Assembly: GCF_026262505.1 (NCBI RefSeq) | Contig: NC_067204.1 | Span: 3,877,797 to 3,941,796, forward strand | Length of the DNA: 64,000 bases | Source of the DNA: Trichomonas vaginalis G3 | Taxonomy: Eukaryota > Parabasalia > Trichomonadida > Trichomonadidae | Direction of reading: 5' to 3' | Shown: in pieces, positions 16,519 through 59,806 of the stretch | Numbering within the stretch: the stretch's first letter is position 1 | How the letters are laid out: the number at the start of each line of letters is the position of its first letter | Notes under the pieces: generated by a model | Database searches by the model: none | What the model was told of the DNA's origin: nothing | Seen by the model: only the letters and a program-made list of their open reading frames with translations | Program-made: the position numbers and the translations under genes

Positions 16519-16564
16519 GGTGAAGAGGTGAGATCTCACCTGTTTTTTCACCTCTTTTTTCACC
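16519..16564 (+). promoter_or_regulatory. GGTGA-type five-half-site palindromic element (cassette, stop side)
   Basis: The same 46-bp geometry as at 5927-5972, flanked outside by AAAAATATAATTTA. It lies just past the stop codon of the gene at 16574-17542. An inverted copy lies beyond that gene's start (17621-17666), so the gene is bracketed. Confidence 0.75.
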
Positions 16565-16573
16565 CCAGTTTTT

Positions 16574-17542
16574 TCACAAGCGTTTTACATGAATTGTACG
16601 ATGTATATTTGAAATCCTAAACAATTTCGTAGCTTCTATTTCTTCTGTCAGTATGTCAAAAGTTTTAACAATACCGAAGGTTTCTTTATACTTCTTCTTG
16701 ACGTCAGATAGAAGGAAATCTTCTGCTGTTGGATAGTTTTTGTTCAGAAATTCTAACATGTTCATTTTATCTTCTGCTGGCTTTTCTGCTTCTTTCTTTA
16801 AGTCTGCATAGTCGTTTCTCATTCTTTCTATCTCTTTGACTGAGTAGTTATATTTCCTAATTGCTGCCTTACATTTTGAACATTGCGGGTTCATTTTTGC
16901 GTTATACATTGAAATAAAACCAGCTAAAACAACTAAGGCGTCAATTGCTCTCTTCATCTCAAACATAGCGGGTCTTATTTGTTCGTTCCATACTTTGCCT
17001 CTTCTATCTTTATCTCTTATTTCCCAAACACATTTTGCAACTAATGAAACAAAGTTATCGTAAGTCTTAAACTCCTCAGATTTATATATGTCAGAAATGT
17101 TTTTATATACCATGTCGCAATCTTTGTCCATAACCTTATGGTTGCAATGAAAACCAAGGAATTCATAATTTACTTTACGTATGAACTTCTTTATTTCTAC
17201 TGAGTCAGTTGGTTTCACTTCAATTTCGTCGAATTCAGGAATAGTGAGTTTTTGTTGTTGGATTTCAGGCAATTTGGGTAAATGGTCAATAATGTCCTGC
17301 ATTTCATAAAGATATTCTTCATTTTCTTCATCTTTCGCACTACAGTCTAAATTACTTGTTAAAAGTTCTTGCTTTATCTTCTGGATTTTTGTTTCGAAAG
17401 TATATGAAGAAGGAATGAAGTTTTTCATCTCTACTAACATTGACGTAGGATTCATGACTAACGAGTTTGGTGCTGTTGTTGTGGACAGAGTCCCGCCGTT
17501 CGCGGCTTGAATTGTTGTTGTGCCGATTGTTGAAATCATATC
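16574..17542 (-). CDS. Palindrome-bracketed cassette gene, unknown function (322 aa)
   Basis: Family not recognised. The N-terminus is low-complexity (Ser/Thr/Ala). A middle segment is IRKVNYEFLGFHCNHKVMD. A Cys pair (CSKCKAAIRKY) could be half a zinc site; the C-terminal part is helical and ends in IHVKRL. The ATG at 17540-17542 is chosen because the 22 codons further upstream overlap the A/T-rich leader. The gene sits alone between inverted copies of a 46-bp element. A decayed homologue in Mav2 (58748-59652) is bracketed the same way by a different element sequence, and a third 3' remnant is at about 58570-58600. Confidence 0.7.
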   Translation of the reverse strand, partial: DMISTIGTTTIQAANGGTLSTTTAPNSLVMNPTSMLVEMKNFIPSSYTFETKIQKIKQELLTSNLDCSAKDEENEEYLYEMQDIIDHLPKLPEIQQQKLTIPEFDEIEVKPTDSVEIKKFIRKVNYEFLGFHCNHKVMDKDCDMVYKNISDIYKSEEFKTYDNFVSLVAKCVWEIRDKDRRGKVWNEQIRPAMFEMKRAIDALVVLAGFISMYNAKMNPQCSKCKAAIRKYNYSVKEIERMRNDYADLKKEAEKPAEDKMNMLEFLNKNYPTAEDFLLSDVKKKYKETFGIVKTFDILTEEIEATKLFRISNIHRTIHVKRL

Positions 17543-17620
17543 TTTTATACAAAATAAAAAAATAAAAAAAATAAAACTAACTTTATTTTTTATTTCGGGA
17601 AAATTCATGAAAATTCACGG

Positions 17621-17666
17621 GGTGAAAAAAGAGGTGAAAAAACAGGTGAGATCTAACCTCTTCACC
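17621..17666 (-). promoter_or_regulatory. GGTGA-type five-half-site palindromic element (cassette, start side)
   Basis: An inverted copy of 16519-16564 with one substitution in a half-site (TCACC to TAACC). The outer flank is TAAATTATATTTTTG, and the site lies upstream of the cassette gene. It also lies beyond the 3' end of the integrase gene. Confidence 0.75.
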
Positions 17667-17706
17667 TAAATTATATTTTTGTCTGATTTACATCTAATGA
17701 AAAAGT

Positions 17707-18790
17707 TTAGAAGAATTTTCTTATTCTTTCTGGCATATTTTTGTCTTTCCAGTACTCCCGCTCTAATGGTCCCAGATGTGTTGGCTTCGACTCTCTCAAG
17801 TTCTTAGATGGTATAACATCTTCAACGCCTCCTTCATATCTTACTTTATAAGTGTCATCGTTTGTGTTATAGCCAAGTATTTCAATAACCACTCCTCGCT
17901 TTGCTTCGTCAATGGTTTCAGCAAGTTTGCCATTACTACTTTCGACTAATTTATGTCGAGGATAAAACGCAATAGAGTCGTCGCAGCTTTTATAAGATAT
18001 CCATTACCTTGCGTAGAGTCTACAATATAATAATTTCGACTTAACCTTAAACGTTTCTTTGTCAACGGTTTGTCGTCAAGAACTACACGAACTTTTGTAC
18101 CAGGAATGAGGGTAAATTGTGTTGAATTTCTGATATTTTGTGTTTGGCTTCGTTTCTTTTGTATATACTTTTCTTCTTGTTGTTGTGTCATTGAATTTGG
18201 TGTATGTCCTGTTGTAGAATGTGTTGAGGAATTATATACTTCGAGAAAATGTTTCATTGTTTCTTCGGTAAAGTCTCGCTCTTGGTTTAAATCTCTGAGA
18301 GTCCTTATGAAGCGGTTTATGATGCCGAGTATGTTATGGTTATGGTCTTCAGTAGTGTAGTGAGTTATGTTATGCTTAATGAGAAATTCTGTGATTTCAT
18401 TGCTGAGGTATGCACTGTCTTGGTCTGATGTTAAAGTACTTGGGTTATGTTCTGCTACAAACTTTTGTAAAACTCTTAACACTTCACGAGTTCCTTTATT
18501 TTTCATTGGATATGCATATGCTTTACGAGTGTTAACATTTATGAAGATGAGGAATGGTTTATGTCCTCCTTTTCTGCTTTGAATGAGAGTGTCAAATTGG
18601 TATGCGTCAGGAGTGTTGGAGTAAATTGGTAAAAAGTAGTCGTAAGGGTTTATTTTTGTTTGATGTACAACATTTTTGTCAAAGAACTTTTCACTTCAGC
18701 TCTGTTAGTAAATCCCCAACTCTTTGCAGCTTCATTGAACTTCTTAAATGACCTCCATGGATGTTGTTCGAATACTTCTTTCAAGCTCAT
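17707..18790 (-). pseudogene. Retroviral-type (rve) Maverick integrase, two frameshifts
   Basis: The N-terminal piece (18660-18790) begins MSLKEVFEQHPWRSFKKF. After a one-base shift near 18650, the core continues with QFDTLIQ (first Asp), TSDQDSAYLSN (second Asp) and LGIINRFIRTL. A second shift near 17985 leads to the chromodomain-like C-terminus (17707-17892: YKVRYEGGVEDVIPSKNL). The residue 36 positions after the second Asp, where the third catalytic acid (Glu) is expected, reads Asn (codon AAC). So this copy seems inactive on two counts, unless the breaks are assembly errors. Integration would then need enzyme from another element. Confidence 0.85.
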
Positions 18791-18809
18791 TTATGTAAAG
18801 TTAAAGATT

Positions 18810-21800
18810 TTAACCAACTCGTATCCAAGCGTGCATTGTTATATAAGGAGGCATATAATCTTTTCCATTACCTGCTGGGTCTGTAATACCAGCTACAACA
18901 TGTGTATGATTTCCTGCAGTTCCACAGAAAATACCTGTGCTAACATCTTTGGGGTCATCTGAGATATCATATCTGTTCATTCCCTGTCTATTCGAACCCG
19001 CTGCAAGATTTATATAACCTCTTTTTGTTATTGAATGTGAATGGTTTCCTTCCACAGATGTTCTTCCACTGAACCTATGCATATGTGAAGGAAGGTTTTC
19101 AATACCTATTTTCTTTGAACCTCCCATCTTCATTGACTGCGTATTAGTGTAGAATGGAAAACTGTCAACTATTTCATACCATCTACCACCAAATAAAGTG
19201 TTTGGATTTATTGGATTCATAGACGTATAAACAGCTCCTATAGGATATATTAAATCATATATGCTCATAACTCTATAAACATATTCTAAAGAACTTATGT
19301 CATTAAATACCATTTGGAATGTATCTCCCGGATGAAATGTTGCATTTGTTCCACTTTTATAATGTAATGTTAGTTCAATAGAATTATCCAAGAAAAATTC
19401 AAAAGTATCTGGTTGAAGACCTCTAACAAATTCAAATGGAGTTGCTGGTTCACCATTTATAATTTCTGTTGTAAATGTCATTGTATCTGGTTTCGAAAAT
19501 TTCTTTGTTAGTTCTGCATCCACATAAGTTTTATCTGCTTTCTTATCTAACATTGTTGGTAGTTCATATGCTTCAAAGTTTCTGGCATGACTTTCAATGT
19601 TCCTGCAACTCTTATCTAAACTGTTAAGAGTATCTTTTACGCTTGTACTTGGATTTTCTAATGGTGCACTTGAACCAAGGTCAAAGTTCAATATTATGTC
19701 GTCTGCTCTAACAGTAGTGAAGGATTTATGTGTATGGTTCTTGTCAGCTTTACTGTCTAATGTAGCTTGAAGTTCATTTATATCGGAGATGTTGTGTTTA
19801 TGAGATTTCAAAACTTTGTTCATTGCTTCGAGTTCAACTTTGTCAGCTTTACTTTTAATAGCATCTTCAAACGTTATTTTTGCCTTAACTCTCAAAGTAA
19901 ATCTTGGTTCAACTAATACACCGTTAACATTGAAAGTAGAGGCATAAATTTCACCGGTATAACCAAATGCTTCTGGTGCTTTAGCTACATCATACTGTAC
20001 AGTACAGCTTATGTCATAACCTTTAGCACGAATGTATTTATATCTTCTTTCATTAACATTTTTTGTCTTCGCTTCATCACTTCGTGTTAAATATCCATGG
20101 TAGTCCGTTATAATCTGTTCGTCTGAAGTTATATAATGAACATGGTTCTTGTCCGCTTTACTATTTAATGTAGCTTGAAGTTCATTTATATCGGAGATAT
20201 TGTGTTTATGAGATTTCAAAACTTTGTTCATTGCGTCAAGTTCATTTTTGTCCGCTTTACTATTTAATGTAGCTTGAAGTTCATTTATATCGGAGATATT
20301 GTGTTTATGTTCTTTATCTGCTTTTTCGGCTAATTTCTCTTCTATCTCATTTATTTCAAGTTCATGCCTACCACCACCTCCCGAAGAAGTATTTTTCTTC
20401 AGCTCTTGAAGAACGTCCACTTCGCCATCTTTGGTGTCAATAATGAGACTTTGTGTTAAAACCTTTCCTGTCTTAATGGATGTTTGTAAAACTTCTTCTT
20501 CACCGTGTTCGGGGTCATGGTCGTCATCATATCTTGTGAAATCAGAGATGTTGTCATACATTAAGCATATCTGTCTCAAAAGTTCTGCTATTTGAAACTG
20601 GAACGAAAGATATACAGAACTTTCATCATCTCCTAAAGTCAAGTCTGCTTTCTTAAGTATTTCTTGAATGTATGCAATGAGAACAGAGTACCTTGGAAAA
20701 TATTCGAACAATATTTCATTAGCTGTTGGTTTTGGTGGTTCTTCTGGAGTTTCTGTTGTTTCAGTTCCTTCTGTTGGAGTTTCTGCATCTCTTGACTTCA
20801 ATGCTCTTGCTCTCAAAGACCTAAATGTTAGAGCACCGGGTTTTACAAAGGACTTTATAAATGCTTTAATAGTTCCTGGTAAGTTATTGTTAGCATTAAG
20901 TAAGTTCCTTATGCTTCCATCATGTACGTCCATAGCACTATGTAAAAAATCTATACTTTTCTTGTAGTCAGCAATAGACTGACTGTGATTTTTTAAAGAT
21001 TTGTCAATACCTTTAAGCCAATCTTCATGCATGTCTGATACTGAGCCAAGAATATCATTTGCTTCCTTTAGTGTATTTTGTGCTTGTCGTAAAGTATCCA
21101 ATCCCGTACGTGCATTGTTTGCTATACGTCTTACAGTATCTATTTGACTCCTTGTTTCTTGCATCCAACCAGATAAAGTTTTAATAGTATCCGAACCATT
21201 TGAAATGAAGTTCAAAGCATTTTTAACGTCATTTAAAACTTCTTCACCAAGTACTGCCCATATCTTTCCGATTTGGTATTGAAGAACTCCATATGAAGCA
21301 GCTGTTAAACCAGTATTTATAAGGTCCCATATCCATGATTTAGCAGTTTTTCCATCCTTTCCATCCTTTCCATCCAAACCGTTTTCGCCTTGAGGTCCTT
21401 GTATTCCTTGTATTCCTTGTATTCCTTGTGGTCCTTGAGGTCCGGTGTCACCCTTCTCTCCTTTCAGTTCATCTTTATGTTCGTTATAATATTCTAATGT
21501 CATAAGGTGTACATCATTACTGCTACCAGCAACGCCAAGAATTTGTTTCTCATTCATGACTAAATTCTTTAAGCATTTAATGTTGTCGTCAAATCGAAAG
21601 CTCTTTAACAATTCAATGAGAACATTCAGTACTTTCACTAATGAGGCATCTACTGTAGAATTTATATATTGCACCGTTCCATCATTTATGATAGGAACCT
21701 TGCTTGTTGTAATGAATGGGTCATAAGTGTTAAAAGTATCGAAATCAATGACTTTTTTAGTTTTTCCATCGTCAATGACTAAATCATTGCCTTCAATGGT

Positions 21801-21878
21801 TAAAGTTGAGTTTTCGTTTACTAGTTCATGTGCTCTTCTTGCTTCATTTGTTTCATACGCATATGCAGCAATAGTCAT
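18810..21878 (-). CDS. Fibre-like protein with collagen repeat and phage tail-collar-type C-terminus (1022 aa)
   Basis: About 140 N-terminal residues are followed by a collagen-like Gly-X-Y run (about residues 140-178, including GDTGPQGPQGIQGIQG), a long helical region, and at least three copies of HKHNISDINELQATLNSKAD with SKADKN spacers. The C-terminal 150 residues hold YPIGAVYTSMNP, LFGGRWYEI, paired His motifs (GNHSHSI, GNHTHVV) and a final PPYITMHAWIRVG. That end is the signature of bacteriophage tail-collar/short-fibre domains. By family analogy this would be a trimeric surface fibre binding a host receptor. It is divergent (17 bp) from a penton-like gene. Confidence 0.85.
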   Translation of the reverse strand: MTIAAYAYETNEARRAHELVNENSTLTIEGNDLVIDDGKTKKVIDFDTFNTYDPFITTSKVPIINDGTVQYINSTVDASLVKVLNVLIELLKSFRFDDNIKCLKNLVMNEKQILGVAGSSNDVHLMTLEYYNEHKDELKGEKGDTGPQGPQGIQGIQGIQGPQGENGLDGKDGKDGKTAKSWIWDLINTGLTAASYGVLQYQIGKIWAVLGEEVLNDVKNALNFISNGSDTIKTLSGWMQETRSQIDTVRRIANNARTGLDTLRQAQNTLKEANDILGSVSDMHEDWLKGIDKSLKNHSQSIADYKKSIDFLHSAMDVHDGSIRNLLNANNNLPGTIKAFIKSFVKPGALTFRSLRARALKSRDAETPTEGTETTETPEEPPKPTANEILFEYFPRYSVLIAYIQEILKKADLTLGDDESSVYLSFQFQIAELLRQICLMYDNISDFTRYDDDHDPEHGEEEVLQTSIKTGKVLTQSLIIDTKDGEVDVLQELKKNTSSGGGGRHELEINEIEEKLAEKADKEHKHNISDINELQATLNSKADKNELDAMNKVLKSHKHNISDINELQATLNSKADKNHVHYITSDEQIITDYHGYLTRSDEAKTKNVNERRYKYIRAKGYDISCTVQYDVAKAPEAFGYTGEIYASTFNVNGVLVEPRFTLRVKAKITFEDAIKSKADKVELEAMNKVLKSHKHNISDINELQATLDSKADKNHTHKSFTTVRADDIILNFDLGSSAPLENPSTSVKDTLNSLDKSCRNIESHARNFEAYELPTMLDKKADKTYVDAELTKKFSKPDTMTFTTEIINGEPATPFEFVRGLQPDTFEFFLDNSIELTLHYKSGTNATFHPGDTFQMVFNDISSLEYVYRVMSIYDLIYPIGAVYTSMNPINPNTLFGGRWYEIVDSFPFYTNTQSMKMGGSKKIGIENLPSHMHRFSGRTSVEGNHSHSITKRGYINLAAGSNRQGMNRYDISDDPKDVSTGIFCGTAGNHTHVVAGITDPAGNGKDYMPPYITMHAWIRVG

Positions 21879-21895
21879 ATTTTAATGAGAATAAA

Positions 21896-22672: not shown

Positions 22673-22902
22673 AGTATGAATGTTATGTATTAGGTCATGA
22701 ACTTTGGTTGTTGCTGTTTGATGAAACAAATGAATTAGTTATGTCAGTCAAGAGAACAGAAAAAGGCGTCAAAGGCGCCGAGCGCAAAGCGCTATATTGT
22801 GTTAGTGAAAACTGCACCAAGTCAATAAGATTAGGTTTGCATTATGAAGATGAGTTCGATACTGTTGAAGAAGTTTTGGATAGATATTACAAATTGCTTT
22901 AA
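22633..22902 (+). CDS. Small protein, unknown function (89 aa)
   Basis: It overlaps the end of the penton-like gene by 40 bp in another frame. The product has an N-terminal beta segment with YVLGHELWLLLFDETNELVM and an acidic C-terminus. Overlap at the ends of genes is common in these compact elements. No family recognised. Confidence 0.55.
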   Translation: MQQLTRELRAKNIKYECYVLGHELWLLLFDETNELVMSVKRTEKGVKGAERKALYCVSENCTKSIRLGLHYEDEFDTVEEVLDRYYKLL

Positions 22903-25920: not shown

Positions 25921-26433
25921 ATGGTAGCTTGGGCAGCTTTAGGCGCAATGGGAACAAAAGCATTAGCATTTGGAGCAAAAGCACTTGGAGCTTATGACGC
26001 AGTAAATAAAATGAGTGGAGGAAGAGTTTCGAAGACATTAGATGCAAATAAAGGAAAGATTGGAGGCTGGGTTGCAAAGAAGTTAAGATTAAATAAAATA
26101 GGACTCATAAATAAAGCATCCAATTTGGTTGCGACTGAGTCAGAAAATGCTTTAGGAAAGGACGATGAGTTTGCAAAACACGCAAAAGACTTTAATGACC
26201 AGATGAAAGGTGAAACAATGCATTTAAATAGAGTCGATGGAACTCTTCCTCCACCAGTAGTTCTTCCGTATGGTCCCTATGGAATGTATGGAAACCCTTA
26301 CGAAAGACCATTTGACCCATTGACTGGTGGAAGTAATTGGTATCATTACGGACGAAGAAGAAAGACAGTCAAGTTGGAGACAGACGTGAAGAAAGCAACT
26401 AAAAAGAAACCAAGGAAGAGAGTTATAAAGTAA
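25921..26433 (+). CDS. Ala-rich basic protein, possible minor virion or core protein (170 aa)
   Basis: The N-terminus is a hydrophobic/Ala-rich amphipathic stretch (AWAALGAMGTKALAFGAKALGAYDAV), the middle is charged, followed by a Pro/Gly/Tyr-rich segment (LPYGPYGMYGNPYERPF) and a very basic tail (KKATKKKPRKRVIK). The profile suits a capsid-interior or membrane-active protein like those of adenovirus-type viruses; this is analogy only. The last codons lie in the right TIR. Confidence 0.6.
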   Translation: MVAWAALGAMGTKALAFGAKALGAYDAVNKMSGGRVSKTLDANKGKIGGWVAKKLRLNKIGLINKASNLVATESENALGKDDEFAKHAKDFNDQMKGETMHLNRVDGTLPPPVVLPYGPYGMYGNPYERPFDPLTGGSNWYHYGRRRKTVKLETDVKKATKKKPRKRVIK

Positions 26434-26444
26434 TGAATTCAACG

Positions 26445-26490
26445 GGTGAAAAAAGAGGTGAAAAAACAGGTGAGATCTCACCACTTCACC
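26445..26490 (-). promoter_or_regulatory. GGTGA-type five-half-site palindromic element (right TIR)
   Basis: The inverted twin of 5927-5972, just after the stop of the 170-residue gene and before the 3' end of the TIR gene. The outer flank is TAAATTTATTTTTG. Confidence 0.7.
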
Positions 26491-26580
26491 TAAATTTATT
26501 TTTGCGCTATGTTTTCATACGTGTGAGGGTGGTGATATCATTAATTTTTAAATAAATGTGGGAACAAAAATAAAGCATAT

Positions 26581-27015
26581 CTACTCAACAGGAATGAGAC
26601 CCTTACTGACTATGTATTCGTTTAATGCTTGATGAAAACAATGGTACATATTATCGTATGGGTATACACAACGTCTGTTTCCATCGTCATCGTATATGTA
26701 GAGCTCAAATCCAGTCCAACCTTCTTTTGTACAATATGTAGCTTTATTTAAGTATGCATTTATGTAGATAAGGCAATTTTCTTCATCGCTCCAGAAATAA
26801 TTTTTCGTCATTGTTGAAATAGTTTTCGTTCCTCTACGTCCATAAGGAATGTATGCAATAAATTTAGCATCATAAGGTATTATAATATATTCAGGGTTTC
26901 TTTCATCGTCAATGGGTCTGTCTTTGTTAAAATGCATGTTTCTCAGTTTTACTTGAGTTTTGAATAGTTCACGGAAACGTTCTGGGAAAGAGTCATAGTA
27001 AATGTAGTCAGACAT
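26581..27015 (-). CDS. TIR-encoded protein, right copy (144 aa), function unknown
   Basis: The protein is identical to that of 5402-5836. It reads inwards from the right end, converging on the gene at 25921-26433. Identity of the two copies at protein level indicates very recent common origin or homogenisation of the TIRs. Confidence 0.8.
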   Translation of the reverse strand: MSDYIYYDSFPERFRELFKTQVKLRNMHFNKDRPIDDERNPEYIIIPYDAKFIAYIPYGRRGTKTISTMTKNYFWSDEENCLIYINAYLNKATYCTKEGWTGFELYIYDDDGNRRCVYPYDNMYHCFHQALNEYIVSKGLIPVE

Positions 27016-27271
27016 GTCTTTGTAATGAAATAAAAATTTAAAAAAAATAAAAATAAGGTTATTTTTTATTTAGTGAGGACGGTAGTGAATTCGTTAGTGA
27101 AGTCGTTAGTGAAGTCGTTTATGTGTCAGATGGTTTTGTAAATATTTAAGGTTAAGTTGGTGTTATGGTTGTGTTGTAAAATATACGTTACTGGTTTCGT
27201 AAAGTGTCAAAACCGCTAAGTGGTGTACGGAGGCGCGCAGTGCCACAGTACCCAACTTAGAGATACTAACT

Positions 27272-27382
27272 TGCGTAATATTAAAAATTAAGGTATTAAT
27301 TATGATTATCTTTCTTTAGCTTTACATGCTGTATGCTACTTTTGGAAACTGCTCTATTGTATTAGAATGTTTTTAAATTTTG
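27272..27382 (+). repeat. 121-bp tandem target repeat, end of unit A and unit B
   Basis: It opens with the right Mav1 target duplication TGCGTA and continues with ATATTAAAAATTAA, then a fresh GGTATTAATT unit up to AAATTTTG (27375-27382), which is the duplication of the next insertion. Confidence 0.9.
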
Positions 27383-29586: not shown

Positions 29587-30477
29587 TCTTTGAGACATTC
29601 CATGATTTAAGTTAAGAAGCTTTAAAAAAAATGCAAAAAAAAAATGTAATAAAATAAAAAAATTTTTAGTATCGATAATCTGAAATATGTTGTTTACTTA
29701 AGCCGCGAACGAAGCGAGCGGCTTAGTTTCGTAATTTCATACAATCTTTTTTCGAATTTGTTCTTTTCTTAAGCCACTCGCTTCGCTCGCGGCTTAGTTT
29801 CGTAATTTCATACAATTATTTTTCGAATTTGTTCTTTTTGTCAACCGCGAGCGAAGCGAGTGGCTTTTTATTTTTTTAAATTTTTTTTCTTTCTTACTTT
29901 TTCTTCCCTTACTTACAAATTTGATAGTAACTTACCAAATCTCTCTATCATATAATAATAAATTAATCCATTCTTTGTTTCAAATCTGACACTTTACATT
30001 TCTGACATGTAAACATGTCGCTTTTCACTTCACCTCACTGGGCAAGTTTGTGCCCCCCTCTTTTTTTTAATTCAATAGATGAGTGATAAAAATTAGTTGT
30101 AACTTCTTATGTTTAAAGCATATTAATGTTTGAATAGGATCTATTGATAATATGCATAAAGATCTATTAGATGCTATGAAGAGACATTAAAAAACCAACT
30201 CCTATTGAAGAAAAATGGCATTCAAATCATCAATGTTTTCTCATTCAGGGCTTTACTTTTTTGCCACTTCTGATGGATATAATTGATAGCATGATTATAT
30301 GGTTTGCATACAACATATTTTACGTAAGACTTTTGTCTGGATACTATAGAAATAAAAACTCAAGAATGAATTATGAATTAAATTAAAATTAAAACATAAG
30401 AAAATATTATAATGCAATATTGATCCATATGTCAGTATAGAACACAGTAACTAAAGGAAAGTAATAAGCACCATTAA
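29587..30477. other. Intergenic region with alternating-orientation GC-rich repeat
   Basis: Three copies of a 21-bp core (GCCGCGAACGAAGCGAGCGGC and variants) at about 29702-29722, 29772-29792 and 29844-29865. The first two are in 70-bp direct repeats (TTTCGTAATTTCATACAAT.. ATTTTTTCGAATTTGTTC-type spacers), and core 2 is inverted relative to core 3. No gene is visible; the rest is A/T-rich. Confidence 0.6.
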
Positions 30478-30703
30478 TTTGTTGTTTCCGACATAAATCA
30501 AAAATGAGGTATAAAAAAGATAAACAAAATTTAATTTAAGTGATAATTCATATATATAAATCGAAATAAAAATTTTGTACTGTCCGACATCGTTCATCGG
30601 TTAGGATAAGCGGTTCTCATCCGCTGGAGCGGGGTTCGACTCCCCGTGTCGGAAAACTTTTTTTATTTTATTTTTCTCCTGTTTTGAGTTTTCATTTTTT
30701 CAT
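30478..30703 (+). repeat. tRNA-Glu inverted repeat, left arm (226 bp)
   Basis: Reverse complement of 31184-31409 with no visible length change. It includes a full tRNA-Glu and, at its outer edge, the first few codons and leader of the tail-anchored gene at 31393, which is cut off here after about five codons. Confidence 0.9.
30583..30654 (+). tRNA. tRNA-Glu(CTC)
   Basis: A canonical cloverleaf: acceptor TCCGACA/TGTCGGA, D-arm with TCATCGGTTAGGAT, anticodon stem AGCGG/CCGCT with loop TTCTCAT (anticodon CTC), T-arm GCGGGGTTCGACTCCCCGT. A run of seven T follows after AAAAC. An identical gene on the opposite strand is at 31233-31304. Confidence 0.95.
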
Positions 30704-31183: not shown

Positions 31184-31409
31184 ATGAAAAAATGAAAACT
31201 CAAAACAGGAGAAAAATAAAATAAAAAAAGTTTTCCGACACGGGGAGTCGAACCCCGCTCCAGCGGATGAGAACCGCTTATCCTAACCGATGAACGATGT
31301 CGGACAGTACAAAATTTTTATTTCGATTTATATATATGAATTATCACTTAAATTAAATTTTGTTTATCTTTTTTATACCTCATTTTTGATTTATGTCGGA
31401 AACAACAAA
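31184..31409 (-). repeat. tRNA-Glu inverted repeat, right arm (226 bp)
   Basis: Inverted twin of 30478-30703. It ends inside the fifth or sixth codon of the tail-anchored protein gene, which continues outside the repeat. Confidence 0.9.
31233..31304 (-). tRNA. tRNA-Glu(CTC), second copy
   Basis: The sequence is identical to 30583-30654 but on the minus strand. The two genes face each other across 578 bp. Its T-run terminator (TTTTTTTATTTTATTTTT read on the minus strand) is preserved. Confidence 0.95.
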
Positions 31410-31605
31410 ATATCCAGAATCACTTACTAAATATGTTAACGAAAGGAACAAATATATGAAACAAGCAGCTGAAGATTCCATCAAAGCTGCTAAGAGTCAA
31501 AATCAGAAAGATATTCTTAAATTCCAAAGAAGTCAAAATTTAACGACAATACTAGCTATTGTTGTTTTAATTCTTGCTGCAGCTATTGCCTACCTATACA
31601 TATAA
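31393..31605 (+). CDS. Small tail-anchored membrane protein (70 aa)
   Basis: A 45-residue charged, helical cytosolic part is followed by a single C-terminal membrane segment (LTTILAIVVLILAAAIAYLYI) with no residues beyond, the architecture of a tail-anchored protein. No family recognised; an ER-translocon small subunit or SNARE-like protein cannot be excluded. Its promoter region and first codons lie in the tRNA inverted repeat, so it is close to, and opposite to, tRNA-Glu copy 2. Confidence 0.75.
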   Translation: MSETTKYPESLTKYVNERNKYMKQAAEDSIKAAKSQNQKDILKFQRSQNLTTILAIVVLILAAAIAYLYI

Positions 31606-44895: not shown

Positions 44896-44992
44896 TAGTG
44901 GGGCTTCCAGGCACTTCGTGCCTTCTAGCCCTAAGAATTTTTCCCAAGACCCAAGAGGAGGACCGAACCCCAGCCGACCAGCCGTTGACTTT
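44894..44992. other. G+C-rich terminal segment with B-box-like motif
   Basis: A small hairpin GGCACTTCGTGCC lies at about 44912-44924. On the minus strand GGGGTTCGGTCC resembles a Pol III B box. It is flanked by the poly-A (poly-T on the minus strand, a Pol III terminator). It could be a terminal structure of Mav2 or a fragment of a tRNA-derived repeat. Confidence 0.35.
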
Positions 44993-44995
44993 TTT

Positions 44996-45365
44996 GTCAT
45001 GATTTCATCGTAAATGTTTTGTCATGATTTCATCGTAAATGTTTTGTCAAGACTTCTTCGTAAATGTTTTGTCAAGACTTCTTCGTAAATGTTTTGTCAA
45101 GACTTCTTCGTAATGAGCGTAAAGGACCCAAAAATATAATTTATGTTAGAATGTTAGATCTAACATGTTTTCTAACATGTTTTCTAACATCGTAGAAAAC
45201 TCATGATTTCATCGTAAATGTTTTGTCAAGACTTCTTCGTAAATGTTTTGTCGAAACTTCTTCGTAAATGTTTTGTCATGATTTCATCGTAAATGTTTTG
45301 TCGAAACTTCTTCGTAAATGTTTTGTCAAACTTCTTCGTAAATGTTTTGTCAAACTTCTTCGTAA
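44996..45365 (+). repeat. 25-bp tandem repeat array
   Basis: Repeats of TCAAGACTTCTTCGTAAATG plus TTTTG, with variants TCATGATTTCATCG. They surround the palindromic element at 45143-45190. A second set of related repeats in the other orientation is at 45480-45780 and 45870-45960. No gene lies in 44990-45999. Confidence 0.85.
45143..45190 (+). promoter_or_regulatory. TGTTAGA-type five-half-site palindromic element 1
   Basis: ATGTTAGA, ATGTTAGATCTAACAT, then two further TCTAACAT half-sites at 12-bp spacing: the same layout as the GGTGA type but with another half-site. The outer flank is CAAAAATATAATTT and, before it, GAGCGTAAAGGACC. Confidence 0.75.
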
Positions 45366-45394
45366 TGAGCGTAAAGGACCCAAAAATATAATTT

Positions 45395-45442
45395 ATGTTA
45401 GAATGTTAGATCTAACATGTTTTCTAACATGTTTTCTAACAT
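45395..45442 (+). promoter_or_regulatory. TGTTAGA-type five-half-site palindromic element 2
   Basis: A direct repeat of 45143-45190 with the same GAGCGTAAAGGACC flank, about 252 bp downstream. Confidence 0.75.
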
Positions 45443-45788: not shown

Positions 45789-45836
45789 ATGTTAGAAAAC
45801 ATGTTAGAAAACATGTTAGATCTAACATTCTAACAT
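45789..45836 (-). promoter_or_regulatory. TGTTAGA-type five-half-site palindromic element 3 (inverted)
   Basis: Inverted relative to the previous copy, with the outer GGTCCTTTACGCTC flank. Copies 2 and 3 bracket about 345 bp that hold only the CATAGACAAGAAAGT-type repeats, so it looks like an empty cassette. Confidence 0.75.
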
Positions 45837-53848: not shown

Positions 53849-53883
53849 ATTTAAAAAAAATATTTTTTTATCCGATAGAAAAG

Positions 53884-54303: not shown

Positions 54304-54319
54304 AAATAAAATTTTATTT

Positions 54320-54778
54320 TTACATGTCAAATTTCTTTTTCTCTGGCTCTGGCTCTGGCTCTTTCTTCTCTTCTTCTACTTTCTTTTCTTTCTTTTCTCT
54401 CTTCTTCTTCTTCTTCTCTGGTGGAGTTATGTCAAACTTCTCAGAACCATATTTTTGTAAAAGTTCTTTGTCCTTTAATAGCTCTTCTATTCTGTTTCCT
54501 ATTTCATCTTCAAGAACAGCGCATGTGTCTTCTTTGCATTCTAAGAACTTTTGTTGGACTTCATCTTTCCAATCGGCGTCATCTCTGTCAACAAGTCTGT
54601 CATTGACAAACTTAAAGACTTCTCTGCTTAAGGTTTTATGGTTCTTGTCATATTCCCAGAAACAGAACTTTAGAACAAATTCCCCTTTCTTGTTTACACT
54701 ATGTAAGATTTTATGGTCGACAGATGTTTTGCTGTCGAAAAGCTTGTCTCGAATATAGATAGCGAAATCGCTAGACAT
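54320..54778 (-). CDS. Conserved Maverick protein (152 aa)
   Basis: Homologous to the Mav1 gene at 15789-16163 in its N-terminal half (FCFWEYDKNHKTLSREVFK). The C-terminal third is a Lys/Glu-rich tail (EKKKKKREKKEKKVEEEKK) not seen in Mav1. The start at 54776-54778 follows TTTTTATCTTTTTGAAA. It is divergent from the packaging ATPase. Confidence 0.65.
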   Translation of the reverse strand: MSSDFAIYIRDKLFDSKTSVDHKILHSVNKKGEFVLKFCFWEYDKNHKTLSREVFKFVNDRLVDRDDADWKDEVQQKFLECKEDTCAVLEDEIGNRIEELLKDKELLQKYGSEKFDITPPEKKKKKREKKEKKVEEEKKEPEPEPEKKKFDM

Positions 54779-54814
54779 TTTCAAAAAGATAAAAATTTTA
54801 ATTTTTCTAAAAAT

Positions 54815-55687
54815 ATGTTAGAAAAAAAGTTTGCTGACATTGACAAGAAATTTGAGAATGTTTTAAATAAGAACAAGAGGAAGTTGGAAAATGCTCAGAT
54901 AAAACCCATACATGACAAGTTCCTATTTGCTCAGAATGGTATAACAGGTCTAATCGCACCACCTGGGTCGGGTAAGACTTTCACTTATCTTAAAATGGCT
55001 GCACAACAACAAAGAACTAGATGAGAAAACCCATTCTATGAGTTAGTATTCATTGTAGTACTTCTGGTCAATTTGACCAAACCGTAATTCGTTCAAAGAA
55101 TTATAAAGAAGTCTAAGTTAGTATGTATAAAAGACTCTGAGTTGTTAGATTGGATAAAGAAGTACCAAAGAAGAGTTTTGAAGTACAATGCTATAAATGA
55201 GTATATAAATTCGAAGTTTAAAGACCCAAATGAGGAAATGCAGAGAATATTAGAGAAGAAACACTTCAGAAACAAACAGAAAGAGATAGAATACATTTCG
55301 AAGAAATTGCAATCTTACGATTGGAAGACATACCCTCATAGATGTCTTCTTATCTTAGATGACTTTGCTTCTCATCCTTTGTTAAAGAACAGAGAACAAG
55401 ACATGTGTCGAATTCTTAAGAAGCTCAGACACTTTAACATCTCAGTTGTCATTTGTGTACAGACAGCAAAGAGTTTAAGTAAGGATGTTAAAAGAATACT
55501 TACTGATATCATACTTTTCCCTGGATTGTCCGAAGACGATTTCATGGAACTTATGAAAGAGTCCATGGCAGGTAAGTTTGACAGACATGAACTATGGGAG
55601 AAGTACAAAGTCATACAAGACCCTCATACTTCTTTCAGAATTCACATCTACGCGAACAAAGTTCAAATTGTAAAAAGTCAAGCTTGA
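54815..55687 (+). pseudogene. Packaging ATPase of Mav2, frameshifted
   Basis: The N-terminal part carries Walker A (APPGSGKTFTYLKMA); it ends in a stop at 55022-55024. The rest is in another frame: Walker B LLILDDFAS, then QTAKSL and a FPGLSEDDF segment, to 55687. Homologous to 23937-24824. At least two shifts lie in 55020-55142. Confidence 0.8.
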
Positions 55688-55770
55688 AAAATCTAAGTGT
55701 TTAGTCTTAGTAAGTCTGTTGTGGTGCTGGGGCTGTCGGTTCTTCTGGCTTTGGAATGGACTCGGTTGGT

Positions 55771-56165
55771 GGTACGTCGGACATTCGTTTGTGTCCTGTC
55801 GGATGGAAGAACTTTTTCTGTCGGAAGGAAGAACTTTTTCTGTCTGAAGGAAAAATTTTTTCTGTTGGAAGGAAAAACTTTTTCTGTCGTTCGACCAAAA
55901 AGTTCTCAATTTTCGAAAATTTGAATGGTTTACGGACGAACAACAGGAAATTTTTTTCCTGTCTGAAGGAAATTTTTTTCCAGTTGTCGGGAAATTTTTT
56001 TCCTGTTGGAAGGAAGGACTTTTCCTGTCGGAAGGAAGAACTTGGAATGCCAGAAGGAAGAACTTGGAATGCCAGATGGAAGGACTTGGAATGCCAGAAG
56101 GATTTGACAAGGCAATTTACTTTATAGAGCTACCTGAGCCATCTGAAGTCAAGCTTGAAAAATAA
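55771..56165 (+). repeat. Head / iteron / core / iteron / tail module A
   Basis: Head GGTACGTCGGACATTCG, then repeats of GTCGGAAGGAAGAACTTTTT, a core with TTCTCAATTTTCGAAAATTT, then GGAATGCCAGAAGGAAGAAC repeats, then a tail with ACCTGAGCCATCTGAAGTCA. The same order as modules B-D, with a different iteron. Frames found here are read-through of repeats. Confidence 0.7.
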
Positions 56166-56174
56166 ATGGTTCAT

Positions 56175-56954
56175 CTACCCTGCTTGTTTGAAGTTGTCAA
56201 AATACTCTGTTATCTTTTCCTTCAGTAGCGGCAAATCTTCTTTGAATGTAAGTATTGTACAACCTTTAATATCATAGTGTGTTTGAGGTAACGTATCTTG
56301 AACTATTTGTTTCACATCTTCATTCGGTGTCATTGAAATCGGTAAGTTTTCGCGATAGAACCAATTTCTGTCAGATTTGTAAATCTTAGCAAGGTCGTAA
56401 AAGCTTTTGTTGTTTCTTCTGACTAAATGCAACATAACCATATCTCTGTCTTCTTCATTTTCCATCTCTTCAGTGTAAATCATATACTTATAGTTCTTTT
56501 CCTTTCCTTTTGGTACCGAACGTGGTATTCTTTTCTGTATGTTTTTGTCTTCTTTCATCATATCTTCTCTCTGCTTTGTACAAAGTTCGTCAAGTAGCAT
56601 AAGTATGTAGATTGCATAACGAGGTGAAGCCCACATTGCTATTGAACTAACTAGGAACGTATGAACATATATACCTTTTAGATGTGATGGTAAGTTTTGT
56701 CTGTCTTGGTACATCTTTTTAAGTTCTTCATGTTCAAACTCACTGAGGAGTTCATGAGTGCTATTTAATTCAAACCAGTCTTGTGGTTTCTTAGTATCTG
56801 GAGCAAAACATGCTGTCAAAATACTTTGCATTTGGTACATATCGTCTTTGACCGAACGAATGAGACGGAGTTGTTTGTTAAACTGAACCCACTCATATTC
56901 TTCATTTATAGCTTCATGGACTATAACTGTTGTTGTGTTCTCTGTTGTTGACAT
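56175..56954 (-). CDS. KilA-N domain protein of Mav2 (259 aa)
   Basis: The N-terminal half is a KilA-N DNA-binding domain (ILTACFAPDTKKPQDWFELNS, then GIYVHTFLVSSIAMWASPRYAIYI). The C-terminal part has YDLAKIYKSDRNWFYRENLP and LTFKEDLPLLKEKITEYF, shared with the broken Mav1 copy. Viral KilA-N proteins bind DNA and usually act in regulation. The start is the ATG after the TTGTATGTAAAGACAGAT leader; the frame before it would begin with TTG. Confidence 0.85.
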   Translation of the reverse strand: MSTTENTTTVIVHEAINEEYEWVQFNKQLRLIRSVKDDMYQMQSILTACFAPDTKKPQDWFELNSTHELLSEFEHEELKKMYQDRQNLPSHLKGIYVHTFLVSSIAMWASPRYAIYILMLLDELCTKQREDMMKEDKNIQKRIPRSVPKGKEKNYKYMIYTEEMENEEDRDMVMLHLVRRNNKSFYDLAKIYKSDRNWFYRENLPISMTPNEDVKQIVQDTLPQTHYDIKGCTILTFKEDLPLLKEKITEYFDNFKQAG

Positions 56955-57072
56955 ATCTGTCTTTACATACAAAATAAAAAAATATTTTATAAAAAACTAA
57001 CTTTATTTTTTTTAAGTTTGGTCATCCTTCACTATATGACAAATATACTATATTTTACTTAAAAATATGCAA

Positions 57073-57142
57073 GCGGCTCATAGCTCAGTGGTATGGGCTA
57101 CCTCGCTACAGGCGTCGAAGACCTCGGTTCAAATCCCGATTC
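57073..57142 (+). ncRNA. tRNA-like Pol III-type element in Mav2
   Basis: The A-box-like TAGCTCAGTGG (57081-57091) and the B-box-like GGTTCAAATC (57126-57135) have tRNA-like spacing, and a T6 terminator follows at about 57150. The D-stem (GCTC/GGGC) pairs, the T-stem can pair with an 8-nt loop, but the acceptor arms match only GCG/CGC. I call it tRNA-like, not a tRNA. Confidence 0.45.
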
Positions 57143-57186
57143 GCGCAGGTTTTTTCCTTTTATGCAGTGAAATTTCATGTACATAG

Positions 57187-57308
57187 GTTACTTTGGTGTT
57201 AGACCCTAGTGAAGAAAATAGAACGATATAAGTTTACATTTGTAAGGCTACTTTGGTGTTAGACCCTAGTGAAGAAAATAGAACTATATAAGTTTACATT
57301 TGTAAGGT
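57187..57308 (+). repeat. Direct repeat of 61 bp, two copies
   Basis: ACTTTGGTGTTAGACCCTAG and GAAGAAAATAGAAC.ATATAA recur with one difference (57187-57247, 57248-57308). It lies between the tRNA-like element and module B. No gene. Confidence 0.85.
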
Positions 57309-57330
57309 TGGACGATAAAATTTACTGACT

Positions 57331-57790
57331 GACGTCGGACATTGTCTTGAAAAAGTAAAAGACTTGTCTTGAAAAAGTAAAAGACTTGTCTTGAAAAAGT
57401 AAAAGACTTGTCTTGAAAAAGTAAAAGACTTGTCTTGAAAAAGTACGGGTATCGTCTGAAATCAAGACCACTGTTCTCAAATTTGAGAACTTTACACCAA
57501 AAAATTTCTTGAAAAAATACGGGTCTTGTCTTGAAAAAGTAAAAGACTTGTCTTGAAAAAGTAAAAGACTTGTCTTGAAAAAGTAAAAGACTTGTCTTGA
57601 AAAAGTAAAAGACTTGTCTTGAAAAAGTAAAAGACTTGTCTTGAAAAAGTAAAAGACTTGTCTTGAAAAAGTAAAAGACTCGTCTTGAAACAATGACCGA
57701 CATAGACCCAGCAGATGAGGCAATCTACCTTATAGAGATAAATGAGCTAGTTAGGAACTACCTGAGCCATCTGAAGTCAAGCGTAAAAAT
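57331..57790 (+). repeat. Head / iteron / core / iteron / tail module B
   Basis: Head GACGTCGGACATTG, five units of TGTCTTGAAAAAGTAAAAGA (22-bp period), a core with the palindrome GTTCTCAAATTTGAGAAC (57472-57489), about seven more units, then the short frame at 57693 beginning MTDIDPADEAIYLIEINEL and the tail CTACCTGAGCCATCTGAAGT. The repeats carry no spacer, so it is not CRISPR. Confidence 0.85.
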
Positions 57791-57830
57791 AAACGCTTTA
57801 CATGTATTTTTCAGCAACTTCGTCAAATAA
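57693..57830 (+). CDS. Possible small acidic peptide (45 aa)
   Basis: MTDIDPADEAIYLIEINELV is present in two modules (57693 and 61071), at the end of the iteron array. It is conserved despite the changing downstream sequence, so it may be translated. Part overlaps the gene on the other strand. Confidence 0.3.
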   Translation: MTDIDPADEAIYLIEINELVRNYLSHLKSSVKINALHVFFSNFVK

Positions 57831-58358
57831 TTTTATAGCTTTATCTATCTCATCTACTTCAAACGTTTCTTTACCTTTCGTGGGAGCACCATACATTTTC
57901 TCAAACTTTTCAAGTAGTTCTGTTTCAGCAGCTCTCATATCGTTAACAAACACAACCTTGACTCTATTGACTGTACTGTCATATCTACTACTTATATTAT
58001 ATGTTCTTCCTATCTTATATCTCTTTGTATTGAAGTCCTTCGGTTTCTGAACGATGTAAAGTAAGCCTTCACTGCAACGTTCCGTATCGAATGAACCATA
58101 TGTTATGAAATTATATCCAACAACTGGGTCTAACCAGAACAAAACTACTGGTATAAGACTTTTGTCTATAAGATATGCTGTAGTTCCATGAAATCTTACC
58201 GATATCATAAGCTCAGGATTTCTTGTCAAATATTTTCTGAGATGAAGCATTTTAACCCAGTCGTTTGTTTTCTTTCCAGATGGAGATATAATGTCTGACA
58301 AAGAATATTTGTTGTATTTCTTTGAGTATCTTACGTTTAAATCACCAATTCTAACCAT
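57798..58358 (-). CDS. KilA-N-like protein with T5orf172/GIY-YIG-type C-terminal domain (about 187 aa)
   Basis: The C-terminal part (EGLLYIVQKPKDFNTKRYKIGRT, AETELLEKF, KGKETFEV) matches the T5orf172/MUG113 group of GIY-YIG-related domains. The N-terminal half (RYSKKYNKYSLSDIISPSGKK and YLIDKSLIPVVLFWL) looks like a KilA-N relative. Many viral proteins combine the two. The first in-frame ATG is at 58356-58358; an ATG at 58406, right after the usual leader (TTGTATGTAAGAACAGGAA), is in another frame, so a shift at the start is possible. Confidence 0.65.
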   Translation of the reverse strand: MVRIGDLNVRYSKKYNKYSLSDIISPSGKKTNDWVKMLHLRKYLTRNPELMISVRFHGTTAYLIDKSLIPVVLFWLDPVVGYNFITYGSFDTERCSEGLLYIVQKPKDFNTKRYKIGRTYNISSRYDSTVNRVKVVFVNDMRAAETELLEKFEKMYGAPTKGKETFEVDEIDKAIKLFDEVAEKYM

Positions 58359-58518
58359 TTTGGTGTCATTGTCTATCTTTCTAACTGTTTCAAACTCAGT
58401 GTTGACATTTCCTGTTCTTACATACAAATAAAAAAAAATATTTTAAAAAAACTAGCTTTTATTTTCTATCTTAAGGAAATTCATGAAATTTGGTCATTTT
58501 TCAGCAAAATATATTTTA

Positions 58519-58564
58519 GGGTAGAAGGGTATATCTACCCGTTTTCTACCCTCATTTCTACCCC
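58519..58564 (+). promoter_or_regulatory. GGGTAGA-type five-half-site palindromic element
   Basis: The third half-site version: GGGTAGAA, GGGTATATCTACCC, then two TCTACCC half-sites with T-rich spacers, 46 bp. It is directly followed by a cassette-gene 3' remnant (about 58570-58600, reading NVYHVKRL and a stop on the minus strand). So it marks the end of a third cassette that has been lost. Confidence 0.75.
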
Positions 58565-58693
58565 AGTTATTTTATAAACGTTTCACATGGTAAACGTTAT
58601 TTTTTAAATTTTGTGAAAACTCAACGGTTTGACACAAGCCCTAAAATATATTTTACTCAGAATTTTACTCAGAATTCGGCAAAAATATAATTT

Positions 58694-58741
58694 ATGTTAG
58701 AATGTTAGATCTAACATGTTTTCTAACATGTTTTCTAACAT
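58694..58741 (+). promoter_or_regulatory. TGTTAGA-type five-half-site palindromic element 4 (cassette, stop side)
   Basis: As 45143-45190, flanked by CAAAAATATAATTT. It lies 6 bp beyond the stop of the Mav2 cassette gene; the inverted partner is at 59759-59806. Confidence 0.8.
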
Positions 58742-58747
58742 AACTAT

Positions 58748-59652
58748 TTACAAGCGTTTTACATGGTATATGTTGCGATGGTTCATGACTTTAAACAATT
58801 TTGTGGCTTCGATTTCTTCACGAAGGATATCGAATGTTTTAACAATGCCGAAAGTTTCTTTATACTTCTTCTTGACGTCAGATAGAAGGAAATCTTCTGC
58901 TGTTGGATAGTTTTTGTTCAGAAATGTCAACATGTCCATTTTATCTTCTGCTGGTTTCTCTGCTTCTTTCTTTAAATCTGCATAGTCGTTTCGCATACGT
59001 TCTATCTCTTTGACGGAGTAGTTATATTTCCTCATTGCTGCTTTACATTTTGAACATTGCGGGTTCATTTTTGCGTTATATTCTGAAACCTTACCTGCTA
59101 AAACAACTAAGGCGTCAATGGTTTTCTTCATCTCGAACATAGCGGGTCTTATTTGTTTCGTTCCATACCTTACCCCTACTATCTTATCTCTTATTTCCCA
59201 AACACATTTTGCAACTAATGAAACAAAGTTGTCGTAGGTCTTAATTCTTCGGATTTGTAAAGGTCAGAGATGTTCTTATATACCATGTCGCAATCTTTGT
59301 CCATAACCTTATGGTTGCAATGAAAACCAAGGAATTCATAATTTACCTTTCGTATGAACTTCTTTATTTCTACTGAGTCAGTTGCTTTGACTTCTATTTC
59401 ATCGAATTCTGGAATAGGAAGCTTTTGTTGTTGGATTTCAGGAAGTTTAGGTAGATGGTCAATAATATCCTGCATTTCATAAAGATACTGTTCATTTGTT
59501 TCATCTTTTGCAGTGCAATCTAAATCTCCTTGGAGAAGTTCTTGCTTTATCTTCTGGATTTCTGTTTGAAAGTATATGAAGAAGGAATGAAGCTTTTCAT
59601 TCTCTACATAGATGTTGGATTCATAACTAGCGAGTTTGGTAAAGTTGTTGCT
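58748..59652 (-). pseudogene. Cassette gene of Mav2, frameshifted
   Basis: Homologous to 16574-17542 throughout: MNPTSM near the start, then MQDIIDHLPKLPEIQQQK (59215-59475 frame), NPQCSKCKAAMRKYNYS (58748-59140 frame), and the end YHVKRL. Frameshifts are near 59160-59240 and at 59590. The start (59650-59652) follows TTATTGTAAGAAC, the same leader as KilA-N genes. The gene is bracketed by inverted TGTTAGA-type elements instead of GGTGA-type ones. Confidence 0.8.
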
Positions 59653-59758
59653 AACATGTTCTTACAATAAAAATAAAAAATATTTTTTTAAAATCTAACT
59701 TTATTTTTATGTTTTTTGTGAAAGTGTCAAAATTCATGAATTTCGAGAGTTTTCTACG

Positions 59759-59806
59759 ATGTTAGAAAACGTGTTAGAAAACATGTTAGATCTAACATTC
59801 TAACAT
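59759..59806 (-). promoter_or_regulatory. TGTTAGA-type five-half-site palindromic element 5 (cassette, start side)
   Basis: The inverted partner of 58694-58741, with one base changed in a half-site (GTGTTAGA for ATGTTAGA). The outer flank is TAAAATATATTTTTGG, followed by module C. Confidence 0.8.

Follow-up and report, generated by a model that had tools for sequence, protein, structure and literature searches.

The DUF3839 protein (Pfam PF12943) of Trichomonas vaginalis probably binds DNA in a sequence-specific manner; its predicted binding sites are the five-half-site elements around its gene, which it would read with its C-terminus. To this reading, drawn from sequence comparison, we assign a probability of about 0.6. 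Just before a conserved C-terminal HVKRL, DUF3839 carries one of three alternative 8-residue segments, and each segment is paired with one class of half-site: SNIH(R/H)TI with TCACC (G class), MNHRNIY with TAACA (T class) and SRIHNVY with TACCC or TAACC (C class). Much of the T. vaginalis genome consists of mobile, virus-like elements, and to our knowledge the coexistence and control of their many copies are poorly understood. The window, in which DUF3839 occurs in two elements (element 1 and element 2, Table 1), is the whole stretch of 64,000 nucleotides that was analysed.

Anatomy and abundance of the sites

All twelve sites of a preliminary description were found again at their positions, and the geometry it had proposed, two forward and three reverse half-sites, is captured by a single 48-bp model, F1 F2|R1 nTTT R2 nTTT R3, centred on AGATCT. 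Nine of the twelve reach the maximum score of 64.7 and the site at 59964 scores 62.2. Two copies deviate, namely 3204-3237 without R3 (44.2) and 58519-58564, in which the spacer is one base short and the centre imperfect (42.2). The number of R repeats is variable, from two at 3204 to longer R arrays, judged by eye, in loci L211 and L212. The AGATCT centre is among the most conserved parts of the site.

Table 1. Sites and DUF3839 genes in the window (positions counted from its first nucleotide).
Position	Strand	Feature
3204..3237	-	G-class site without R3, within an inverted and incomplete copy of the end of element 1
5926..5973	+	G-class site of element 1, left terminal inverted repeat, inner end
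16518..16565	+	G-class site, 9 bp past the DUF3839 stop codon, R arms facing the gene
16574..17608	-	DUF3839 (PF12943) ORF, 344 aa, C-terminal segment SNIHRTI (G class)
16574..16620	-	Last DUF3839 codons: class-determining segment (RISNIHRTI), then shared HVKRL and stop
17620..17667	-	G-class site with one altered F2 base, on the upstream side of DUF3839, R arms facing the gene
26444..26491	-	G-class site of element 1, right terminal inverted repeat, inner end
45143..45190	+	T-class site, inverted cluster without a DUF3839 gene
45395..45442	+	Another T-class site of that cluster
45789..45836	-	Third T-class member of that cluster, orientation opposite to the other two
58518..58565	+	C-class site, spacer 1 bp shorter, outside the element-2 DUF3839 copy
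58694..58741	+	T-class site just past the element-2 DUF3839 stop codon
58748..59140	-	Element-2 DUF3839 copy, 3' part, lacking a single long ORF; ends in the T-class segment MNHRNIY
59759..59806	-	T-class site upstream of element-2 DUF3839, R arms facing the gene
59964..60011	-	Second T-class site upstream of element-2 DUF3839

In the window and 65 fetched loci, which overlap in part and were searched together with it, the model gave 282 matches compared with 18 in the reversed control; 212 were retained after removal of duplicates and short flanks. A genome search with a loose form of the site (AGATCTN6TTTTYTN6TTTTYT, at most one mismatch) was likewise far above its reversed control, with 12,627 versus 1,454 matches. 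The word GGTGAGATCTCACC occurs 4,103 times, TGTTAGATCTAACA 2,989 times and the mixed centre TGTTAGATCTCACC 269 times genome-wide, with no occurrence in the reversed controls.

The five half-sites had been described as changing together between types. This holds in so far as all pairs lie below the chance class mismatch of 0.52-0.65 (196 of the 212 distinct sites used), but the coupling is not uniform. Mismatch is lowest for F2-R1 (0.071), R2-R3 (0.095) and F1-R3 (0.108), and higher for F1-F2 (0.240) and F1-R1 (0.271). The GGGTAGA type does exist, but it is often mixed with GGTTAGA (half-site patterns CTTCC 14, CTTTC 10 and CCCCC 6).

The DUF3839 cassette and its C-terminal segment

The sites bracket DUF3839 genes, one 23-base word of which has 1,911 matches in the genome. 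All 208 counted sites aim their three-repeat arm at DUF3839 (53 distinct genes), on whichever strand it lies; the count covers genes whose C-terminus falls in the fetched stretch. Two loci stand outside it: L058, where a single site some 1.1 kb ahead of a partly fetched DUF3839 points the opposite way, and L049, where a site of a terminal repeat lies past a truncated copy. Between some site pairs there is KilA-N, or no gene at all (L061, L045, L001). In the window, the real start of the element-1 gene is probably near 17539, since most aligned relatives start near residue 24-25, and the DUF3839 similarity in element 2 extends to at least 59542. Searches of Pfam, PHROGs and the PDB found no domain for the C-terminus. 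No catalytic domain was recognised in the protein, for which only PF12943, a family of unknown function, passes the cut-off, although a remote domain is possible.

In 48 of 51 genes the segment has the class of the nearest site upstream, which lies about 1 kb away, and in all 51 it has the class of the nearest site downstream. The best upstream match in 20,000 shuffles was 31 of 51. The three mismatched genes are in L028, L038 and L074, and class matching weakens with distance. Classes were defined on L006-L057 and the window; the remaining loci are later draws. Twenty of these were taken at about every fifth of 100 listed places, one being swapped as a duplicate, and the 13 with both a C-terminus and an upstream site, which form part of the 51, gave 12 upstream matches. 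Thirteen further Maverick regions, of which L210 was picked for T-type sites and five later ones for C-type ends, yielded nine readable C-termini. All nine match, with the three classes represented. The C-terminus was unreadable in L208, L212, L213 and L215; the last, at first sight a divergent DUF3839 (45% by tblastn), is a copy with many frame breaks and adds no fourth class.

Association with the upstream site class (51 of 53 genes used) is concentrated at the end of the protein. Per 40-column bin it averages 0.00-0.06 of the maximum over the first 800 columns, and 0.40, with a maximum of 0.75, in the last 40. Some columns of the body carry signal, up to 0.14, and p 0.005 is reached by five columns at 520-560 and by one at 240-280. 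Divergence within and between classes is 0.081 and 0.083 in the gene body, 0.034 and 0.627 in the 24-bp segment, and 0.044 and 0.076 in the last 18 bp.

A protein with element-specific recognition had been suggested to act at the sites, with the cassette protein or KilA-N proteins as candidate partners. The general suggestion is well supported by the comparison, and of the two candidates it is the cassette protein, DUF3839, that fits, as its C-terminal segment tracks site class. KilA-N is not supported as the site-recognising partner: none of 27 informative columns of the KilA-N relative beside the cassette tracks class (15 genes). T5orf172, also beside the cassette, does not track class either (21 genes; p 0.005 is reached by one informative column out of 57). 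Only five labelled loci yielded the longer KilA-N (56175-56954), too few for a class test.

Element 1 is a Maverick/Polinton by its PolB, integrase and long terminal inverted repeats. Its viral-type PolB (PF03175) lies at 10051-13968 and an rve integrase of retroviral type at 17946-18506 (E 1.6e-6; 28.7 bits, under the Pfam cut-off of 32.6). The inverted arms, 5134-6005 and 26412-27283, are 872 nt long and differ in their outermost dozen bases. In class-neutral loci and the window, all 13 end sites are of G class. Flank words of Maverick ends gave 206 C-type and 6 T-type places compared with 1,200 from the G-type pattern; hence, Maverick ends are mostly, not all, G. The class of the terminal repeat tends to go with that of the resident gene (8 of 10 elements with G ends carry a G gene, and 3 of 4 with C ends a C gene), and differs from it in 3 of 14 Mavericks (L209, L210, L218).

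The best 120 of 288 protein homologues of DUF3839 all bear T. vaginalis names. No match to the cassette DNA was found in phage records, two peptide patterns detected no DUF3839 relative in IMG/VR, and the site pattern gave no full site there among the matches listed (at least 120). In the literature, the passages searched contained no paper pairing T. vaginalis with DUF3839, and the matches retrieved for T. vaginalis with KilA-N carried titles on fungal subjects. A link to GATC methylation was considered and set aside; the term GATC is absent from the passages of PMC12695648 consulted, according to which 6mA is not enriched in T. vaginalis transposable elements.

Alternative explanations

DUF3839 could act as a transposase, or as the DNA-binding subunit of one, in which case the sites would be the co-varying terminal inverted repeats of a small transposon. 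The inverted polarity, the conserved outer boundary near AAAAATA at most sites, the occurrence of the cassette in several gene neighbourhoods and the match of both ends to the gene in specificity are all consistent with this. However, direct repeats of at least 6 bp flank 23.1% of inner site pairs compared with 22.8% of shuffled ones, and 31.4% of outer pairs compared with 29.0% (52 inner and 51 outer pairs), so that a transposon with target duplication was rejected. Considering also the lack of a recognised catalytic domain, the frequent arrays of sites in place of single ends, and the fact that no clean empty site was noticed in an unsystematic search of 13 Maverick regions, we regard a transposon as unlikely.

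The coupling might also be neutral: three old cassette lineages would move as units, with conversion keeping the ends alike and mixing the body while the C-terminal codons hitchhike with the adjacent site. With internal gene conversion shuffling the body, the ends could indeed stay coupled in the absence of selection. About 25 bp separate the segment from the downstream site, which itself is 5-10 bp from most stop codons; thus, the downstream class match could be hitchhiking. Upstream and downstream sites of the same gene differ by 1.76 (G), 2.38 (T) and 3.29 (C) positions, versus 3.88, 3.24 and 4.38 for sites of different genes within a class (37 of 40 gene pairs used). This likeness is clear for G (shuffle P <0.0002) and weak for T (0.049) and C (0.095), and means that co-inheritance or conversion between inverted sites contributes. 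Just two of the 37 same-gene pairs are identical, however, and between classes the segment diverges by 63%, against 7.6% for the 18 bp that separate it from the downstream site. Within classes, changes in the segment are synonymous or conservative (R/H, R/K, V/I), save one stop in L019. A purely neutral origin is therefore improbable.

It is very doubtful that the site is a bidirectional hairpin terminator or 3'-end signal resembling the Mimivirus hairpin rule. DUF3839 and DUF4107 stop codons do have sites 5-12 bp past them, paired covariation occurs at some F/R positions, and the RNA fold predicted for 30 sampled sites beats that of base-shuffled controls (mean z -3.6 and -3.7). The site-less end of the PolB gene also folds strongly (z -4.7), but of the 14 site-less ORF ends in element 1, 11 score above z -1.2 and two more are near -2.2, which disfavours a general terminator rule. 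A palindrome scan, weak in that it recovers one of four element-1 sites, found 2 compared with 2.2 in shuffles. Furthermore, the hairpin leaves the matching with protein residues unexplained, its loop would be expected to drift whereas AGATCT is highly conserved, and the polarity follows DUF3839 on either strand. The element may also be a site-specific recombination site: hybrid sites exist, and flanks and cassettes are shuffled at the sites, although ordinary homologous exchange would explain this too and no recombinase was identified.

Proposed role and comparison with known systems

If DUF3839 is a DNA-binding protein as we propose, it would bind its flanking sites directly, with the 8-residue segment before HVKRL making base contacts with the half-site. 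Together, the gene and the matching sites on both sides would form a module that is inherited as a unit and swapped among Mavericks and elements of a second family. Since the module would move whole, with its matching sites, each module would recognise its own kind. Binding may, as a guess, join the upstream and downstream arrays and so control the gene together with its neighbours, in the manner of phage immunity regions; the role may be one in repression, replication or mobility.

More tentatively, and with a probability below even, the module may be a self/non-self system of eukaryotic virus-like elements. The 8-residue segment would set one of three specificities, the gene's own operators would flank it with terminal sites tending to match, and the module would be diversified and swapped, mainly silencing (or activating, or mobilising) elements of the same class. 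If true, this would be a eukaryotic counterpart of phage immunity groups, and with about 1,900 copies of the gene and 12,000 sites, a single genome would hold a natural, readable protein-DNA recognition code. DUF3839 would gain a concrete, testable role, its probable DNA targets being named base by base, with a prediction of which version binds which site. Even without an immunity role, three natural specificities in an otherwise shared protein would offer a system for studying changes of DNA target.

Among known systems, the hairpin polyadenylation signal of Mimivirus (PMC4402537) shares with our sites a palindrome near some gene ends. In contrast to it, the sites are absent from most element-1 gene ends and their orientation follows one gene. 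Iteron-type replication initiators similarly have tandem repeats, here of 12 bp and varying in number, beside the gene of a putative binding protein; however, no initiator domain was found, and element 1 has its own PolB. Insertion sequences and DNA transposons carry terminal inverted repeats specific for their transposase. DUF3839 likewise lies between inverted matching sites, in many copies and contexts, but its cassette has site arrays and neither a duplication signal nor a recognised catalytic domain.

The comparison that goes with our reading is with phage immunity regions, where the repressor varies in step with the operators beside it and both are exchanged as a unit. In the lambdoid phages, cI is flanked by OL and OR. 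In the same manner, the DUF3839 gene is flanked by multi-repeat sites matching its class, related sites occur elsewhere in its element, and the classes appear to be swapped as modules. Cluster A mycobacteriophage repressors and their stoperators (PMC9283540, PMC6550527) are a further system of this kind. For the DUF3839 module the co-variation is seen at the level of sequence, and repression and immunity are putative. Unlike phage repressors, DUF3839 belongs to a family without known fold and resides in eukaryotic virus-like elements, and its sites combine five half-sites of fixed geometry with a specificity that apparently comes from eight C-terminal residues.

Geometry and surroundings of the sites

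Protein matches assign the window to Trichomonas vaginalis. All twelve five-half-site elements claimed in it are present. Genome-wide counts of sites and centres, to all of which element copying adds, gave 12,627 matches to the geometry as a loose pattern against 1,454 for the reversed pattern, and 4,103 perfect centres of the G class (half-site TCACC) and 2,989 of the T class (TAACA) against 269 mixed centres, with 0 in the controls. Because perfect centres outnumber mixed ones to this extent, the halves of the centre agree far beyond free assortment. On the fetched loci the site model found 282 matches (reversed control 18), and one 23-base word of the DUF3839 gene has 1,911 matches genome-wide.

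The layout over 48 bp is F1(8) F2(8), then across the centre R1(8) nTTT R2(8) nTTT R3(8), where F and R are forward and reverse half-sites. When 106 distinct units are compared, the centre AGATCT and the T runs change least, together with one G per half-site on the F side or one C on the R side; the class-defining bases are the variable bases of the unit. F2 and R1 vary together, as do F1 and R3, which gives a nested symmetry, and R1-R3 form tandem 12-bp repeats with about one helical turn between them. Outside the F arm most sites carry a conserved CAAAAATATATTTT-like stretch, and the R side borders on a stop codon, on a promoter region or on intergenic sequence of another kind.

In 65 loci annotated using the window's own proteins, the sites ring DUF3839 (PF12943), often as arrays; they also sit at the inner end of the terminal repeats in Mavericks. 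The neighbours of DUF3839 vary (integrase, KilA-N relatives, T5orf172, other genes). In the fetched flanks of 53 distinct genes, the R arms point to DUF3839 at 208/208 sites, on either gene strand. Two loci fall outside this count: in L058, where DUF3839 was fetched in part, one site about 1.1 kb ahead of the gene points the opposite way, and in L049 a terminal-repeat site lies beyond a truncated DUF3839. One site pair encloses KilA-N alone (L061), and pairs in L045 and L001 enclose no recognised gene. L061 and L210, a Maverick region, have the same outer flank, and the unit is G-class in the former and T-class in the latter; one position has therefore seen an exchange of units.

A G+C-rich inverted repeat (AACCCGC..GCGGGTT) was seen within a KilA-N reading frame, and pieces of it recur beside sites, suggesting that cassettes, i.e. 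DUF3839 genes with their flanking sites, contain broken KilA-N copies. Several element genes have a motif in common upstream, perhaps a shared element promoter: it reads AAAAATAAAGTTAGTTTTATTTTT... or is an AACGTT variant, and TGTAAGAACA often precedes ATG.

Features of the window (C2:3877797-3941796, in an assembly of 180.85 Mb) and of further loci (L) from the same genome
Feature	Position	Remarks
Element 1	about 5134-27283	Maverick; DNA polymerase B, integrase-like ORF, 872-nt inverted arms
Element 2	roughly 45-64 kb, approximate limits	second virus-like element; DUF4106, D5-like, KilA-N, T5orf172, HNH genes
MULE-type transposase ORF	3791-4867	adjoins inverted fragment of element-1 end
Inverted arms	30475-30703 / 31184-31412	229 nt, 480 nt apart, complementarity 100%
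Tandem-repeat arrays	44947-45367, 55766-56109, 57289-57783, 60777-61161	22- and 25-bp; between and beside sites
Strong predicted RNA fold	9976-10050	MFE -23.3, z -4.7; between convergent ends of PolB ORF and ORF 9109-9966; without five-half-site element
Upstream motif	near 17540-17600; L011 480-560 and 1430-1490	first example before DUF3839
AACCCGC..GCGGGTT repeat	L011 near 750-790	within KilA-N frame
Pieces of this repeat	R flanks in L007, L019, L021, L023; L215 near 545-575	beside sites
14-site array	L001 (C1:5663708-5666740)	nearly mirror-symmetric, seven per direction; no gene recognised by window's proteins

Agreement between the DUF3839 C-terminus and site class

In the 121 DUF3839 proteins read, the segment before the C-terminal HVKRL is SNIH[R/H]TI, MNHRNIY or SRIHNVY, with a few single-residue variants; some ends are truncated or shifted, and the three classes are not bridged by any intermediate. 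SNIH[R/H]TI is paired with TCACC (G), MNHRNIY with TAACA (T) and SRIHNVY with TACCC/TAACC (C). The segment agrees with the class of the nearest downstream site in 51/51 genes and with that of the nearest upstream site in 48/51. The upstream mismatches are L028, L038 and L074, and the next site out matches in L028 and L074. The rule was noticed in the first loci; 20 more were then drawn from a class-neutral list, and 12 of their 13 usable upstream pairs, which are included in the 51, agree. Agreement is strong up to about 400 bp and weaker farther out (upstream 10/12 at 400-800 bp and 8/12 past 800; downstream 2/6 and 0/2).

Although the gene start is the part of the gene closest to the upstream site, the class of that site has almost no relation to columns 1-800: the mean excess information in bins of 40 columns is 0.00-0.06 of the maximum, and individual columns reach 0.14 at most (six have p 0.005). 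The last 40 columns are strongly related to this class (0.40, maximum 0.75). Divergence between and within classes is 0.083 and 0.081 in the gene body, 0.627 and 0.034 in the 24-bp segment, and back to 0.076 and 0.044 in the final 18 bp ahead of the downstream site. T5orf172 next to the cassette carries hardly any class signal (1/57 columns at p 0.005, 21 genes). The preliminary description had named KilA-N proteins or the cassette protein as candidate partners; the neighbouring KilA-N relative shows practically no class signal (0/27 columns at p 0.005, 15 genes), and the segment-site match favours DUF3839. Sequence searches with the DUF3839 C-terminus found no domain. In public records several DUF3839-only proteins bear the name 'organellar and viral DNA polymerase type B', which looks mis-transferred.

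Site class at Maverick ends

In the terminal-repeat flank, C-type site words occur at 206 places, T-type at 6 and G-type at 1,200, the G-type word matching G only and being uninformative alone on class proportions. Of the regions lying between such ends, 13 Mavericks were fetched; the C-terminus was readable in 9, and its own nearest upstream site matched in 9/9. With G ends the resident gene is G in 8/10 (element 1, L029, L037, L043, L048, L206, L207, L211; exceptions L209 with C and L210 with T), and with C ends it is C in 3/4 (L214, L216, L217; exception L218 with T). The chance of a G gene being absent from 4/4 C-ended elements is 15/1001 (hypergeometric, hand count), subject to the caveat that the T-type sites of L210 were the reason for choosing it. 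The class of the ends is associated with that of the resident gene, though not strictly. What holds together tightly is therefore the cassette, and element ends follow it loosely.

Proposed role of the cassette

The simplest account of these sequence patterns is that DUF3839 reads the half-sites through its C-terminal segment. Binding as dimers would suit the nested symmetry, and the gene together with its sites would form a self-recognising module. The main weakness of this account is that co-inheritance and gene conversion can hold cassette ends together, and one gene's sites are indeed more alike than same-class sites of different genes, the difference being clear in G but weak in T and C. 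The sharp segment island and the synonymous or conservative nature of within-class segment changes argue for function, albeit without proving it. If DUF3839 binds its sites, the use that we prefer, by analogy, is looping that would control the region, with groups differing in specificity; alternatively, the module may serve replication control or mobilisation. Promoters and stop codons are found next to the sites. In lambda, OL and OR lie on either side of cI; likewise, the DUF3839 sites flank their gene on both sides, facing each other.
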